Assembly: GCA_944392695.1 (NCBI GenBank)
Contig: CALXXN010000012.1
Location: forward strand, 1-62,201
Reading direction: 5' to 3'
DNA: 62,201 bases
From: an uncultured Spirochaetales bacterium
Lineage (GTDB): Bacteria; Spirochaetota; Spirochaetia; Sphaerochaetales; Sphaerochaetaceae
The notes below the pieces were generated by a model, which had not been told where the DNA came from, made no database searches, and saw nothing but the letters and a program-made list of their open reading frames with translations. A program made the position numbers and the translations under genes. Positions 53,134-62,122 of this stretch are shown piece by piece; position 1 is the stretch's first letter, and every line of letters begins with the position of its first letter.

Positions 53134-54029
53134 CAGCCCAATCCTCCCATGACTTCATCTATGGCCGAGGAGAAGGACATGAGCTGATCGCGGCTCATCT
53201 CCATGCCACGGACGATCACCGTCCGCCCTTCGGCCTTGTACTGCTCAGAAAGGGCGGCGAAGTCCGGCCTCACCCCTTCAAGACGCAGCTGCTGCAGGAC
53301 CTGCTGGCGCAAGAGCTGGCAGAGTGTCGATGCAAGTGACTCATCATCCATCAGGATCTGCGCGTTGAGCTCGTAGCCCCCTTCCCCATCCTCGTTCACG
53401 AAGATCAGGGCATCCGACATCTTCATGATCACGGAAAGAGGAAGCTCGAAGCCGAGGTCGATCATCGTCTCAGGCTCCTTGACGTAGATGCCAAGGACGC
53501 TTGATGACATCAACCTGGCTGTCTCATCGTCAATCAGTAGCACACGCTCCTCGACCGTCCTCCTGTAAGCATCGACATAGTCCTTCGACGCGAAGAGGAT
53601 GATCCCCGATTCTGGGACGGCGAGCTCTATGGAGCCTGCCTCGTTGGTGTAGTACTTGACCCCGTCGACCTTCTCCTTGTGGAACTCCTTCGACCAGGAG
53701 AGTGCCGTGTTGATCGTGAAGGAGCCGTAGTCACCTTCGATCCCACCGTAGAAGTCGAAGTCCGACAGCGATGCAGGATACCGGTCCGCTTCGCTGTAGG
53801 AATCCTTGTAGAAAGCGACAGAGAGGCGTGATGAGCGCTCGATGATGTCGCCCATCATGCCAGTCGTGGCGCTATCCGACAGCGGCAGGCGCTGGGTGTC
53901 GGCGGTGAGCACGATCTCCGCATCCCGGCCCATGGCCTGGAAGTAGGCCTCCCCCTCGTTGAAGGGGGACTCGTGGACACAACCTGTCAGTACCAGCGCC
54001 AGGATGCAAAGTGGTATGAGCTTCCTCAT
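53133..54029 (-). CDS. Lipoprotein of unknown function
   Basis: 298 aa. Signal peptide MRKLIPLCILALVLTGC with lipobox Cys at residue 17. The mature part is alpha/beta without a recognised domain (FTINTALSWSKEFHKEK, IILFASKDYVDAYRR, LPLSVIMKMSDALIFV). It overlaps ileS by 4 bp (ATGA) and the zinc-ribbon gene by one base. Resembles proteins that compare two states of a soluble domain, but no function can be assigned. Confidence 0.72.
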   Translation of the reverse strand: MRKLIPLCILALVLTGCVHESPFNEGEAYFQAMGRDAEIVLTADTQRLPLSDSATTGMMGDIIERSSRLSVAFYKDSYSEADRYPASLSDFDFYGGIEGDYGSFTINTALSWSKEFHKEKVDGVKYYTNEAGSIELAVPESGIILFASKDYVDAYRRTVEERVLLIDDETARLMSSSVLGIYVKEPETMIDLGFELPLSVIMKMSDALIFVNEDGEGGYELNAQILMDDESLASTLCQLLRQQVLQQLRLEGVRPDFAALSEQYKAEGRTVIVRGMEMSRDQLMSFSSAIDEVMGGLG

Positions 54030-57000
54030 GCCTTCTCCACCAGGAGGGCCACCTGCTGGTCAGCGACCTCGACAGCCTCTCCGCTGTTCTCTTCGACAGC
54101 GTAGTCATCAGCCAGCGTCTCGGATGAGATATAGGAGGCGAAGGACTTGGCCGCCCTGTTGATGACCTCGTCACCCCAGATCCTCAGGCGGATGCGGTCG
54201 CTGACGGACAGGCCACTGTCCTTGCGCCTGGTCTGGACAGAGCGGACGATGTCACGTGCGATGCCCTCATCCAGGAGCTCCTGGGTGACCTCGGTATCGA
54301 AGCCGACTGTGATCGAACCCTCGTTGAGGACCTTGACGTTCGCCATCTCGCTGCGCTGGACGACGATGTCGCCTTCTGCGATGTCGATCGAACCTGCGCT
54401 GTAATTGATCGTCACAGTGCCACCATCGAGGATGGAGGCGATCTGGGCGGAACCGAGGGCCTGGATCTGGGAAGCGACTTCCTTCATCGACTTTCCGAGC
54501 TTGGAGCCCAGGACCTTGAAGTTGGCCTTGGCACTGTAGCTGACCAGCTTGGACTCATCGGCCTCGACGGAGACAGCCTTGACATTGAGCTCCTCGGCGA
54601 TGATGTCGCTGTTGCGTTCGATGACGGCACGCTCCTCGGCACTGCGGTCGACGACGAAGAAGCGGGCAAGTGGCTGGCGGACCTTCAGGAGGCTCGAGGC
54701 ACGGAGGCTGCGTCCCATCGTGACACACTTCATCGTGAGCGCCATCTCATCCTCGAGTGCCCTGTCGCGGGCACCTTCCTCTGCGACCGGCCAGTCGTTC
54801 AGGTGGACAGACTCAGGCATGCCCTCCGTGCGGAGGTTGAGGTACATCTCCTCAGTGATGAAGGGCACGAGCGGACAGGCAAGCTTCACATAGGTCATCA
54901 GGACCTTGTAGAGCGTGTCGTAGGCCATCTTCTTGTCCTCATCGCTGCCACTCTTCCAGAAGCGGCGGCGGCTGCGGCGGATGTACCAGTTGTTGAGCTT
55001 GTCGATGAAGCCCAGGAGGTCCTGGCAGACACCCTGGATGTCGAGGGCCTCGAAGGAGGCGGTCACGTCATCGACCAGGCGGTTGAGCTCACTGACGACC
55101 CAGCGGTCAAGCGGGTTGGTCAGCTTGTCGTAAGCCGTCTCAGATGGCTCGTAGCCATCGATGTTCGCATAGGTCACGAAGAAGCTGTAGGCGTTCCAAA
55201 GTGGCAGGATCAGGAACTTGATCGCATCCTTGACGTTGTCATCACTGAAGCGCAGGTCCTCAGCCTTGACGACCTGGCTGTTCATCAGGGCGAAGCGCAG
55301 TGCGTCAGCACCATACTTCGCGACGACTTCCATCGGGTCTGTGTAGTTGTTCAGGCTCTTCGACATCTTCTTGCCATCCTCTGCGAGGACGATGCCGGAG
55401 ACGACACAGTTGAGGAAGGCGGGCTTCTCGAAGAGTCCAGCCGCGATCACAGCGAGGGAGTAGAACCAGCCACGTGTCTGGTCCAGGCCCTCGTTGATGA
55501 AGTCAGCCGGGAAGTGAGCTTCGAAGCGCTCCTTGTTCTCGAAGGGGTAATGCATCTGGGCATAGGGCATCGAGCCTGACTCGAACCAGCAGTCCAGGAC
55601 ATCAGGGATCCTCCTCATCGTGCCCTTGCCATCGGGGCTGGGCCAGGTGATCTCATCGACGAAGTGCTTGTGCAGGTCATCGACCTTGTGACCGCACTTG
55701 GCCTCGAGCTCTGCGACAGAGCCGATGACCTCGATGTAGTCTGAGCCATCGCACTTCCAGACAGGAATCGGGTTGCCCCAGAAGCGGTTGCGGCTGATCG
55801 CCCACTCGCGCGCACCCTCGAGCCACTTGCCGAAGCGTCCATGCTTGATGTGGCTGGGCACCCAGGTGACTTCTTCGTTGCAGGAAAGGAGGAGGTCACG
55901 GATCTTCGGGACATCGACGAACCAGCAGCTCATCGCGCGGTAGATCAGTGGGCTCCCAGTCCTCCAGCAGAAGGGATAGCTGTGGAGGTAGTCCTCCTTC
56001 TTGACGAGCTTGCCGTTTGCCTTGAGCCACTCGATGATGGGCTTGTCGGCATCCTTGACGAACATGCCCTTCCAATCAGGGACCTCGTCAGTGAAGCGGC
56101 ATTCCTCGTCGATCGGGCAGACGGTCGGGATGCCTGTGCCACGGAGGACACGGTAGTCATCCTCACCGAAGCCAGGAGCCGTATGGACGATGCCACAGCC
56201 ATCTTCTGTCGTGACATAATCGCCACAGACGACGACGAAGGCGCCCTGCTTCTTGAGCTCTGCGAAGTAAGGGAAGAGTGGCTCGTAGGTCTTGCCCTTG
56301 AGCTCGCTGCCCTTCATCCTTGCGACGACCTGGCAGCCTTTGCCATCCTTGTAGTACTTGTTCAGCAGCTTCTCAGCCAGGTAGTAGTACTCACCACCCT
56401 CCTCGTCACGGACCTTGACGTAGTCGATGTCCGAACCGACAGCCAGGGCGAGGTTGCTGGGCAGTGTCCAAGGAGTCGTCGTCCAGGCAAGGAAGTAACT
56501 GTCATCCTCACCATCGACCTTGAAACGCACGGTGACAGCTGGGTCGTGGACGTCGCGGTAACCACCGAGGTTGACCTCCATGTTTGAAAGAGGACAGGCA
56601 AGGAGCGGTGAATAAGGGAGGATGTTGAAGCCCTCGTAGATCAGCCCCTTGTCGTAGAGGGTCTTGAAGACCCACCAGATGGACTCCATGTAGTCCTTGT
56701 CCATCGTCCTATAGCCCTTGTCGAAGTCGACCCAGCGTCCCATGCGTGTGACGCTCTCCTTCCACTCCGAGGTATAGCGCAGGACGACAGAGCGGCAACG
56801 CTCATTGAACTTGTCGACACCATAGTCGACGATGGCCTTGTGTCCTGAGATGCCAAGGTCCTTCTGGACGATGCTCTCGACAGGAAGGCCGTGGCAGTCC
56901 CAGCCGAAACCACGCTCGACACGGCGGCCACGCATGGTCTGGTAACGGGGGACCGCATCCTTGATCGTACCAGGGACGAAGTGGCCGAAATGGGGAAGGC

Positions 57001-57154
57001 CGGTCGCGAAGGGAGGGCCGTCGTAGAAGACGTACTCCTGGTCCTTGCTGCGTCCTTCAACGGACTTGTGGAAGATGTCGTTATCCTTCCAATACTGGAG
57101 GATGCGCTCCTCCATCGCGGGGAAATCCGCCTTATTGCCTACAGGGTCGAACAT
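54026..57154 (-). CDS. ileS: Isoleucyl-tRNA synthetase, long (eukaryote-like) type
   Basis: 1042 aa class I synthetase. HIGH-like PPFATGLPHFGHFVPG (about 46-61), the editing domain (WTTTPWTLPSNLALAVG), and KMSKSLNNY near residue 595. The length and the GLPHFGHFVPGTIKD form fit the type 2 IleRS, often mupirocin-insensitive in known members. ATG 57154 follows a GGAGAGATG site. First gene of a four-gene operon. No T-box leader was found. Confidence 0.97.
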   Translation of the reverse strand: MFDPVGNKADFPAMEERILQYWKDNDIFHKSVEGRSKDQEYVFYDGPPFATGLPHFGHFVPGTIKDAVPRYQTMRGRRVERGFGWDCHGLPVESIVQKDLGISGHKAIVDYGVDKFNERCRSVVLRYTSEWKESVTRMGRWVDFDKGYRTMDKDYMESIWWVFKTLYDKGLIYEGFNILPYSPLLACPLSNMEVNLGGYRDVHDPAVTVRFKVDGEDDSYFLAWTTTPWTLPSNLALAVGSDIDYVKVRDEEGGEYYYLAEKLLNKYYKDGKGCQVVARMKGSELKGKTYEPLFPYFAELKKQGAFVVVCGDYVTTEDGCGIVHTAPGFGEDDYRVLRGTGIPTVCPIDEECRFTDEVPDWKGMFVKDADKPIIEWLKANGKLVKKEDYLHSYPFCWRTGSPLIYRAMSCWFVDVPKIRDLLLSCNEEVTWVPSHIKHGRFGKWLEGAREWAISRNRFWGNPIPVWKCDGSDYIEVIGSVAELEAKCGHKVDDLHKHFVDEITWPSPDGKGTMRRIPDVLDCWFESGSMPYAQMHYPFENKERFEAHFPADFINEGLDQTRGWFYSLAVIAAGLFEKPAFLNCVVSGIVLAEDGKKMSKSLNNYTDPMEVVAKYGADALRFALMNSQVVKAEDLRFSDDNVKDAIKFLILPLWNAYSFFVTYANIDGYEPSETAYDKLTNPLDRWVVSELNRLVDDVTASFEALDIQGVCQDLLGFIDKLNNWYIRRSRRRFWKSGSDEDKKMAYDTLYKVLMTYVKLACPLVPFITEEMYLNLRTEGMPESVHLNDWPVAEEGARDRALEDEMALTMKCVTMGRSLRASSLLKVRQPLARFFVVDRSAEERAVIERNSDIIAEELNVKAVSVEADESKLVSYSAKANFKVLGSKLGKSMKEVASQIQALGSAQIASILDGGTVTINYSAGSIDIAEGDIVVQRSEMANVKVLNEGSITVGFDTEVTQELLDEGIARDIVRSVQTRRKDSGLSVSDRIRLRIWGDEVINRAAKSFASYISSETLADDYAVEENSGEAVEVADQQVALLVEKA

Positions 57155-57487: not shown

Positions 57488-58318
57488 TCATTCAGCAGAC
57501 TTGAAGATGACGCTCTTGCCAAAGAAAGCCGCTCCATACTTGAGTACAGTCGTGTAATCCGTAAAGTCCTGTCCATACTGCCTCTCTTTAATCTGGGCGA
57601 TGGCTTTCTGGACATCCTTCTCCATACCTTCATAGGAAGATGAACGCTTGACTTCGATTACCGCTGCACGTCTTTTGGAATCATCAAAGATTACGATATC
57701 AGCACGCCCTGTACCTGTCGCCATATTTGACTTCACATCATATCCATCGGCTGTCAACAGTCCGGCAAGGAAGGCATGGTAGTAGTCTTCCTTGTAGTCG
57801 TAGTAGCTGATTGTCCTAAAGAGGAACTGGGAGACGACATCAGTAAGCTTGTCATCATCCCCAGACCACAAGGCATCAAACACCTTGGCTGGAGGTGCCT
57901 CGAAATGAATAACCTCCATACCCATGTGTCCAGAGACGACATAGACAGGTCCCTGCCTCCACGCCCCTGTCCGGATCCTGCGTCCCTCACTGATGCCATC
58001 TGGGAAGAGCTGGTGATGCCAGCCAAGCAGCCTGGTCTTTGTCAGAGGGCTGTCATGGTTGTCTTGTGCATCCTGTACGATGGATGCGGGTCCTGCGTGT
58101 GCATCATTGTGGTCAAGGCGCACACCCTCGATCAAGCTGGAGGCAATGACCTCATCTTCGAGCATCGAGAGGCGGAAGGCATCACGCCCTGCCTCATCCA
58201 ACGCCCCAAGCCTTTCTTCCAGTCTTGCGGCAGCTTCCACAACCTGGGTCTTGGATGGATTGATGAAATCATCATCCCAGGTGAAACATGGCCAGTCCCC
58301 TTCTTGCCAGATATACAT
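57488..58318 (-). CDS. Chimeric protein: Fic N-terminal region (DUF4172) fused to a DUF1703 PD-(D/E)XK nuclease-like domain
   Basis: 276 aa. Residues 1-144 follow the N-terminal half of DUF4172-Fic proteins: MYIWQEGDWPCFTWDD, inhibitory motif SSLIEG (60-65), GWHHQLFPDG, GAWRQGPVYVVSG, and HFEAPPA. The sequence then switches, before any Fic catalytic loop, to DUF1703: SYYDYKEDYYHAFLAGLL, SNMATGTGRADIVI (Asp 207) and IEVK (Glu 222, Lys 224). DUF1703 usually ends an AAA ATPase. So both parents lost their ATP or AMP domains. AGGAGAAGG precedes ATG 58318. It is open over its whole length; whether it is functional is unknown. Confidence 0.8.
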   Translation of the reverse strand: MYIWQEGDWPCFTWDDDFINPSKTQVVEAAARLEERLGALDEAGRDAFRLSMLEDEVIASSLIEGVRLDHNDAHAGPASIVQDAQDNHDSPLTKTRLLGWHHQLFPDGISEGRRIRTGAWRQGPVYVVSGHMGMEVIHFEAPPAKVFDALWSGDDDKLTDVVSQFLFRTISYYDYKEDYYHAFLAGLLTADGYDVKSNMATGTGRADIVIFDDSKRRAAVIEVKRSSSYEGMEKDVQKAIAQIKERQYGQDFTDYTTVLKYGAAFFGKSVIFKSAE

Positions 58319-58383
58319 GAAACCTTCTCCTCTCCAGCCTCCTGCGTGAGCAAGAGGCCTCTTCCCATCATCCCTTATCCAAC

Positions 58384-60015
58384 CTAACCCAGCACCCTTA
58401 TGATTTCAGGCAGGAGCTGCTTCTTCCTTGAGAGCACACCAGGAAGGTGGTAGAGCCCTGCCTCCTTCTCCTCATAGAGGAGCTTGTAGCTCTTCTTGTA
58501 TGGTGTGCAGATCAGGAGGGAGTCCTCACTCATCACGTTCGTCACGAGCAGCATGGCCCACTCGAGCCCATCGCGCTTCGAGACCGCCTCCAATGCCCTG
58601 ATATAATCCTCCTTGACGGAGGGCACATCAGAGAAGGTTGTCACCTCGACCTGCCCTATTCCAAAGCGCACGGAGCATTCGGTGTAGGTCTTGAAGTCTC
58701 CGGATACGACACTGGAAGGATCCTGGCGTGAGAGCGAGGAGCCATGCGAGAAGAGGTCCTTGCAGAAGTCGTCGTAATCGAGTGAGAGCTGGCGGACCAG
58801 TTCATCAACCGCCCGTCTGTCGACCACTGTCGTCGTGGGGCTGCGCAGCATCAGGGTGTCTGATGAGATTCCTGCCAGCATCAGCTTGGCGATGGCCTCG
58901 TCTGGCTTGATCCCATGGCGCTGCCACTCCTGGTAGATCATCGTGCAGGTCGAACCCACAGGGGCTGCGGTGATCCTGATCGGTTGGTGGGTCTTTGGTG
59001 CATCCAGCCTGTGGTGGTCTATGATCTCGACGATCTCAGCATCCTCCAGTCCAGGCACTGACTGGGCCGCCTCGTTATGGTCGACGAGTATGACACGCTG
59101 GCGTGGCATGTTCAAAAAGCAGCGCCTTGTGACAAAGCCTAGGAAGGAGCCATCCTCATGGCAGAAGACGGGCAGGCCACGGAGGGCGGAGTCGGCGAGC
59201 ATGCCCTTGGCTGTCTCGAAGAGCATGTCGTCCATCACCTTCAGCGAAGCCTCCTCACCTGTCAGCAGGGTCTTCACGCTGACTGCGAGGCGGAAGAGCC
59301 TGATCGTCTCAGCAGTATCCTCATAGGAGACGTAGATGAAACCCTTGTAACCCGTGAGGTCGATCGCTTCAAGGCTGTCCTCATCCATGCCGGTGAGAAT
59401 GAGTCCAGGGAGGTCCTCCTCCATCGCCGCCTTGATATGGTCAGTACGGTTGCCGACAACCAGGACTGGCTTCTCCTGGCAGGCCTTGAGGCGCTTGAGG
59501 AAGACCTTGTAATCCATCGCGCCCACCATGACTGGTGCGTGGACGCTGGTGGCACAGCCACGGCGCAGGAAGAAGCCCTTGATCGTACGGAGTATGTTCG
59601 AAAGCAGTATGTCATAGACAGGGCGCCCTTCCCTGTTCTCCCTGAGGAAGTAGCTGTTGATCCCATCGATCGACAGGAGTCCCATGAAGACATCCCCATC
59701 CATGATGGGTACGACAGAGGGGTTGTTCTGGGCATACATGTTGACCAGTTCGTAGACAGGGTCGTCCGGGGCGAGGACCAGGGTCGGCCTCCGGTAGACG
59801 GAGGAGACCCGGCAGAAGACATCCTTCAGGAAGACGGGGTCTTCCAAGCCCAGTGACTTGAGGACCGCCTTCGATTGGGCATTGAGCGGACCAAGCGCCG
59901 CTGCGACATGGCGGATCCCAGGTTCCACCTGGTCCTTCAAGGCTGCGTATGATAATGCGGCCGCGACCGAATCCAGGTCGGGATTGCGGTGGCCTGTGAT
60001 GAATATCGTCTCCAT
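58384..60015 (-). CDS. ppaC: Manganese-dependent inorganic pyrophosphatase with regulatory CBS and DRTGG domains
   Basis: 543 aa. Family II pyrophosphatase of the DHH superfamily. Metal motifs GHRNPDLDSVAAA (8-20), LVDHNE, and IDHHRLD. The insert between the first catalytic segment and the rest (about 65-300) contains a pair of CBS motifs and a DRTGG domain, which in known members bind adenine nucleotides and control activity. The DHHA2 domain is at the C-terminus. The promoter at 60022-60050 predicts a leaderless mRNA from ATG 60015. Confidence 0.95.
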   Translation of the reverse strand: METIFITGHRNPDLDSVAAALSYAALKDQVEPGIRHVAAALGPLNAQSKAVLKSLGLEDPVFLKDVFCRVSSVYRRPTLVLAPDDPVYELVNMYAQNNPSVVPIMDGDVFMGLLSIDGINSYFLRENREGRPVYDILLSNILRTIKGFFLRRGCATSVHAPVMVGAMDYKVFLKRLKACQEKPVLVVGNRTDHIKAAMEEDLPGLILTGMDEDSLEAIDLTGYKGFIYVSYEDTAETIRLFRLAVSVKTLLTGEEASLKVMDDMLFETAKGMLADSALRGLPVFCHEDGSFLGFVTRRCFLNMPRQRVILVDHNEAAQSVPGLEDAEIVEIIDHHRLDAPKTHQPIRITAAPVGSTCTMIYQEWQRHGIKPDEAIAKLMLAGISSDTLMLRSPTTTVVDRRAVDELVRQLSLDYDDFCKDLFSHGSSLSRQDPSSVVSGDFKTYTECSVRFGIGQVEVTTFSDVPSVKEDYIRALEAVSKRDGLEWAMLLVTNVMSEDSLLICTPYKKSYKLLYEEKEAGLYHLPGVLSRKKQLLPEIIRVLG

Positions 60016-60639: not shown

Positions 60640-61538
60640 CTACTCCCATGCAAGAGAGACATGATTCCAAGTAGCTTCGTATTCATCGCTATCGCTGACT
60701 ATGCTATCGATAATAGGGAGAAGCAACGATTTAAGTAGTCTTATCACATCTTCAAGTCCTACCTCCACCATCGCCCTCTTCTTTTTCACAAAGGCATTCC
60801 ATCTATGTTGGTGGATTTCACTACTGACGAAATCATCTTCGAAAGCAAAGACTTTATGGAATCCTGTCCCCCGATGATTGAAAGTACACTGTATGGCTTC
60901 TTTCAAATCCTCCCCATCCATCTCGTACTTACAGGCAAGCATGTAGATGTCATAGAAATCCTTGTATCTACTGTTGACGTCTCCCAGGGATACGATGGCT
61001 TCAAATTTCTCTGCTATCACAGAATAGATGGAGTATGCATATATAGTAGGAGCCGCCATGTCGAGGATTGTCGGAAATTCCATTTCAAGGCGTCCTGATA
61101 AATAACATCATCAAATCCGATGTCTATTGATACAGGCACTCTTGTCCTGTCCAGATATGCGGTGATGGATACATTCACACCATGGTATTCTTTAACTTCT
61201 ACAATCTCTTTGACATGAAGCGTTGATAGGTCATACCGCAATGCGTCATCGCATTCTATGGAGAACACACCTTCAAATATTTTCTTAATGTTTTCCACGT
61301 TGTTGGGAACATTTCTTGCCAGCAAGTCTATGTCGCTGGTCGCCCGCACGAAATCCCCTTTGAAAAGGGCATATAGGAATATACCACCCTTGAGGGAGAA
61401 ACGCTCATTGTAATCAGATTTAGACAACCTATATACAGTCCGCTCGAGTCCATACAAAGTCAACAATTACTGTAGCGATTTACCTTCAGCGACCGCCAAG
61501 TTCCTCAATCTCGCTTTCACAGAAGCAGCACTCGTCAT
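60640..61538 (-). pseudogene. abiEii: AbiEii nucleotidyltransferase toxin, broken by a nonsense codon and a frameshift
   Basis: The toxin reads from ATG 61538 (MTSAASVKARLRNLAVAEGK), overlapping the antitoxin stop as ATGA. An in-frame TAA stops it after about 23 codons (61467-61469). The same frame resumes with LLTLYGLERTVYRLSKSDY, FSLKGGIFLYALF and SDIDLLAR, the nucleotidyltransferase core. Near 61083 the frame shifts: DALK continues as MEFPTILDMAAPTIYAYSIYSVIAEK only one frame over, consistent with loss of one A in an AAAATG run. AbiEii toxins nucleotidylate tRNA. Two independent lesions make it a pseudogene unless the assembly is wrong. Confidence 0.9.
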
Positions 61539-62122
61539 ACAAGTACCTCCAGATAAGTCCGTATGGCCTTCTCGCATTTCATCAGCTTTGCGTATCTCAT
61601 CAGCCGATCCAGGTCCCTGTCTTCACGTTGCAGATAGTTCCTGAGGATTTCCTTAGTCTCCTCAATCCCAACCATCTCCTTGTAAAAGACTATATCGACA
61701 ATGGTTTTCTCCATGTCGTAGATTTTGAAGTCATTCCTGCCTTCTTCAACCAGTCTTATCCCAAGCAGATACCTGTCGTCTGTGTAATAGTGTATTTCCA
61801 GTTGTGGCCAATCTGGCATCGTTGACACCTTTGACTTACGCGGTATGGCGACATCGATTGCGTCTGGAATGAAAGTTGACAGACCATAATAGACTGCTGC
61901 GCTCATCAGGCAGATCACACCATTTGGAGCAAAAGCCTCTACGTAATAGAAATCAGATTCCTCTCCATTGTAATCTTCGTTCTGGTAATAGCTTTTACTC
62001 AGTTTGGATAGCCCACCCCCAGCGAGGAGCCTGCCAATCCTGTATTGGGAAAGGCCACATTCCCTCAGTTCCTCTGCAGAGAAAATCTTCTTGTCTTCAG
62101 GAAGTGTGAGCACGTTTTTCAT
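61535..62122 (-). CDS. abiEi: AbiEi-family antitoxin / transcriptional repressor
   Basis: 195 aa. An N-terminal winged helix-turn-helix (IFSAEELRECGLSQYRIGRLLAGGGLSKL, about 13-41) and a C-terminal AbiEi antitoxin domain (ICLMSAAVYYGLSTF, AIPRKSKVS, IYDMEKTIVDIVFYK). In this family the N-domain represses the operon and the C-domain neutralises AbiEii. It is intact although its toxin is broken. ATG 62122 lacks a clear ribosome binding site. The last 79 bp of the window contain no gene start that I can support. Confidence 0.88.
   Translation of the reverse strand: MKNVLTLPEDKKIFSAEELRECGLSQYRIGRLLAGGGLSKLSKSYYQNEDYNGEESDFYYVEAFAPNGVICLMSAAVYYGLSTFIPDAIDVAIPRKSKVSTMPDWPQLEIHYYTDDRYLLGIRLVEEGRNDFKIYDMEKTIVDIVFYKEMVGIEETKEILRNYLQREDRDLDRLMRYAKLMKCEKAIRTYLEVLV

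Follow-up and report, generated by a model that had tools for sequence, protein, structure and literature searches.

The 276-residue minus-strand reading frame at 57488..58318 (start codon ATG at 58318, stop codon at 57488) of the window, by which we mean the whole 62,201-nt stretch analysed here, joins the front of a Fic protein to the tail of a DUF1703 nuclease, and it is probably a chimeric gene remnant left behind after an illegitimate in-frame deletion or rearrangement. Of the readings offered in a preliminary description of this DNA, a neat deletion between two genes gives the best fit, although both full-length genes were not found side by side in congeners. The undeleted arrangement occurs at this site in no relative, and the deletion intermediate is therefore unproven.

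Pfam assigned residues 2-72 to DUF4172 (E 4e-15) and residues 176-272 to PDDEXK_9 (formerly DUF1703; PF08011; E 6e-15), with each match passing its curated threshold, and returned no match to the Fic domain model PF02661 or to the AAA-ATPase_like model PF09820, the latter of which is matched by the intact nuclease relative L003. The intact Fic relative L042 consists of DUF4172 and Fic, and L003 of AAA-ATPase_like and PDDEXK_9; the halves of the fusion are therefore opposite ends of two normal proteins. The Fic-derived part (residues 1-145; 57884..58318, minus strand) covers roughly the N-terminal 45% of a Fic protein; it contains DUF4172, the SSLIEG motif at residues 60-65 and the start of the Fic core up to ...HFEAPPAK, without the Fic loop. 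The nuclease part (residues 146-276; 57491..57883, minus strand) amounts to roughly the C-terminal quarter of an AAA-DUF1703 protein, in which the active-site residues D207 and E222-x-K224 (here E222-V-K224) are kept and the AAA-ATPase_like part is missing. An intact frame, a Fic half retaining the SSLIEG helix and the pre-catalytic region without the Fic loop, and a nuclease half with D...ExK but no AAA domain had all been described beforehand, and each of these claims was borne out.

The junction had been placed at about residue 145, and it indeed falls at 145/146, where the one-sided matches of relatives break from either side. Among the tblastn matches listed for 139 family genomes, most of the Fic type have their end at query residues 144-149, and most of the nuclease type have their beginning at residues 144-146. 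In the junction zone (residues 144-148, GCC AAG GTG TTT GAT; 57875..57889, minus strand), where Fic sequence meets DUF1703 sequence, the DNA reads ...GAGGCACCTCCAGCC on the Fic side and ...TTTGATGCCTTGTGG on the side of the nuclease, whose 15 bases shown are all identical to L003. At this point the DNA of the Fic and DUF1703 relatives has a few bases in common at most, and only short, chance-like repeats were found when looking for ones able to mediate a deletion. The junction cuts inside the Fic fold rather than at a domain edge, because the Fic motif of CbFic2 (residues 205-216; 8CIL; PMC10628234), whose structure is the only PDB match of the fusion, falls beyond the cut.

The same architecture was sought across genomes, plasmids and viruses, and the fusion is a singleton throughout. 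Among the matches listed, no other copy in the genus spans both sides, a single both-sided match (the window's own) was found by tblastn in the 139 family genomes, 138 of them other than this one, and no second fusion appeared in a phylum sample of 393 genomes or in 299 genomes of a DUF1703-rich family reached through L019; nearly all relatives listed match one side only, with the break near residue 145. Phages yielded nuclease-side matches and no fusion, and IMG/VR no match to the fusion. Among the plasmid matches listed, four places cover at least 80% of the query, and these we read as probable Fic genes whose alignment runs on into a weak tail, because identity is low (24-31%) and they lie in annotated Fic/DUF4172 genes. 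All of these searches relied on similarity to the fusion protein, which a strongly diverged fusion could escape. Within its own genome, neither an orphan Fic C-terminal half nor an orphan AAA N-terminal half was found.

Short nuclease-only frames are frequent among DUF1703 relatives, both in the family and in the set of 299 genomes. The genomes carrying L019 and L021 (G496 and G497) hold 27 and 17 nuclease-part matches, respectively, and in G496:C97 four such matches stand in a row within ~6.4 kb, a strong DUF1703 expansion with many short nuclease-only frames. At L035:1450-3366, a nuclease-only DUF1703 remnant of 150 aa adjoins a frame that resembles, by eye, an IS200/IS605 OrfB-like transposase, and this neighbour suggests transposon-linked breakage of DUF1703 genes. 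Partial DUF1703 copies, possibly artefacts of scaffold ends, have also been described in Cardinium (PMC6387759).

The Fic part has suffered losses beyond its truncation. Around residues 74-76 (58091..58099, minus strand), the fusion lacks or has replaced ~22 residues (RxSVRSSxxxxLG...D), several of them invariant, which directly follow the inhibitory helix in six of six intact Fic relatives. Ahead of the Fic core, the inhibitory motif [S/T]xxxE[G/N] is present as SSLIEG, and the catalytic loop HPFx[D/E]GN[G/K]R is absent, as the Fic sequence ends before it. The PADLOC SoFic model does not match the fusion and matches an intact relative with E 4e-49. Eleven of 39 conserved positions are changed in the Fic part, compared with 0-7 in close intact relatives and 22 of 61 in the most distant intact relative.

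Structure prediction gave a similarly divided picture. In the AlphaFold2 model of the fusion (11 sequences), the nuclease core reaches a pLDDT of 84-96, while residues 50-143 are mostly below 50, and helix 1 of DUF4172 is the best-predicted stretch of the Fic part at ~54-65. For the intact Fic relative (AlphaFold, six sequences), helix 1 and the inhibitory helix score ~76-94 and the two helices that come next ~78-89; in the flap region (135-169), pLDDT is low for fusion and intact relative alike. Thus, no fold is predicted for the Fic part of the fusion, although the intact relative folds there with an alignment just as thin. Foldseek against the PDB returned weak nuclease-fold matches only (Hjc resolvase type, best E 2.8e-3), with no Fic match among the matches listed.

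These observations bear on the proposal of a new regulatory architecture in which the inhibitory or sensor half of a Fic protein gates a nuclease, an idea that draws on an intact nuclease domain being in frame with SSLIEG and the pre-catalytic region. Class II Fic proteins stay inactive because a helix at their N terminus blocks the ATP pocket (PMC12249575). In the fusion this pocket is gone, and the SSLIEG helix therefore has nothing to obstruct or regulate; moreover, the conserved segment that follows the helix is deleted, a second example was not found in the collections searched, and no Fic fold is predicted. The proposal is unsupported by these results, and we regard it as barely credible.

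The 65 nt between the chimeric frame and the upstream gene of the DHH family (58319..58383, minus strand, the same strand as the DHH gene) contain a Shine-Dalgarno-like AGGAG 8 nt before the ATG, so that the ribosome binding site noted earlier is plausible. In this intergenic stretch, which follows the DHH stop codon, neither a terminator nor a promoter-like site was found. The four closest intact DUF4172-Fic genes (L042, L045, L043 and L046) carry an exact TGACTTGAAT 33-42 nt before their ATG, an element absent from the 5′ flank of the fusion, where the best approach has three mismatches. Given that autoregulation has been reported for CccR, TGACTTGAAT is possibly a promoter or operator for the C-terminal HTH of the DUF4172-Fic proteins of this family.

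A point against a remnant is that 276 codons have stayed open despite two in-frame losses, behind a plausible ribosome binding site. When substitution-only drift was simulated, 43% of the trials still had an open frame at 3% divergence, as did 5% at 10% divergence; the openness of the frame therefore shows youth or selection, not function. That the gene is a functional truncated nuclease under selection, with the Fic part serving merely as a leader or contributing helix 1 as a dimerization element, seems improbable to us. Such retention would account for the catalytic residues and for the 28 of 29 family-conserved positions kept in the nuclease part, and helix 1 of DUF4172, which forms the dimer interface of CbFic2 (PMC10628234), is also the piece of the Fic part predicted best; however, the gene is a singleton without its native promoter, the rest of its Fic part is not predicted to fold, and DUF1703 nucleases are normally accompanied by an AAA module. 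A more specific variant, a recently born chimera whose DUF4172 part dimerizes or restrains a stand-alone PD-(D/E)XK nuclease and which selection has kept in this lineage, appears very improbable.

The genomic setting points to a rearrangement particular to this genome. The chimeric gene is flanked by the DHH-family gene, encoding a probable manganese-dependent pyrophosphatase (58384..60015, minus strand), and by the gene for isoleucyl-tRNA synthetase (IleRS; 54026..57154, minus strand). In all 11 resolvable congeners, the 3′ neighbour of the DHH gene is a convergent RelA/SpoT gene, and the gene before IleRS is CCA-transferase-like in seven congeners and one of various others elsewhere. RpiB-DHH and IleRS-lipoprotein-TrpS are conserved blocks that are nowhere adjacent in congeners, nor was a Fic or DUF1703 gene found beside DHH or IleRS within their 1.5 kb flanks. 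Because the two blocks are joined here only, the chimeric gene marks a genome-specific rearrangement. In L071 and L072, a gene that looks AAA/DUF4143-like by eye lies just before IleRS (in one frame in L072 and apparently split into several in L071), and the site therefore seems to attract accessory genes.

Both halves of the fusion are compositionally foreign: their GC3 of 0.59 and 0.54 is similar to that of the AbiE genes at the end of the window (0.46-0.53), compared with 0.76-0.81 in the neighbouring core genes. The AbiEii toxin gene of this type IV toxin-antitoxin pair (60640-61466, minus strand) is split over two frames, the first half of the profile matching 61017-61466 and the second 60640-61083, and is therefore frame-broken; AbiEi (61535-62122) looks complete. 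We count both the foreign composition of the fusion and the broken AbiEii gene nearby among the signs of decay.

Since the assembly is a draft of 39 contigs, a misjoin inside the gene, linking DHH-Fic wrongly to DUF1703-IleRS, is possible, and we consider it unlikely. The flanking blocks are neighbours in no congener, and the RelA gene that DHH has lost as a neighbour lies on contig C31, 257 bp from the contig end, as a misjoin might leave it. Nevertheless, the few bases common at the junction are too little for the usual k-mer misjoin, the join keeps the frame exactly, no orphan halves lie at contig ends, and the tail of C31 has no match in the window; the separate loss of 22 residues would also be left unexplained.

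The deletion remnant that we favour would go back to a DUF4172-Fic (SoFic-type) gene, gained by horizontal transfer, and an AAA-DUF1703 gene oriented in the same direction. Through an illegitimate in-frame deletion or rearrangement, the catalytic core and C-terminal part of the Fic protein would have been lost along with the entire AAA module, the joining taking place at a breakpoint of the genome that lies between DHH and IleRS; the Fic part would also have lost the 22-residue piece, in frame, as well as its own promoter. The frame may still be open because little time has passed since the event, or because the nuclease part continues to be tolerated or used. Any protein would probably be made via read-through from the DHH gene; the remnant presumably lacks a function, though its nuclease domain is perhaps live, and at most the protein could plausibly offer an unregulated PD-(D/E)XK nuclease domain preceded by an N-terminal leader that folds poorly.

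Domain annotation alone would call a Fic-nuclease fusion at 57488-58318, and the case illustrates how open chimeric frames resembling new effector architectures are left behind as defence-type accessory genes turn over. The chimeric frame would gain biological weight only if conspecific strains keep it.

Among known systems, the closest counterparts of the first half are the DUF4172-Fic-HTH proteins of class II Fic (SoFic, CbFic2 8CIL, CccR): residues 1-145 align to the first ~170 residues of intact relatives and have the SSxIEG inhibitory motif in common with them. In contrast to these proteins, the fusion is devoid of the Fic loop, the C-terminal HTH and 22 further conserved residues, and, to judge from its sequence, it cannot AMPylate. 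In DUF1703 proteins, the nuclease is accompanied by an AAA module and a helical middle region (PMC1913061). Compared with these AAA-DUF1703 proteins (PF09820 and PF08011/PDDEXK_9), residues 146-276 of the fusion correspond to the nuclease tail at up to 62% identity, with D...ExK kept, and the whole AAA module and the middle helical region are missing. The absence of AAA is shared with truncated nuclease-only DUF1703 genes (L035 and several short frames), from which the fusion differs in that its nuclease sits in frame behind the 5′ part of a foreign gene.
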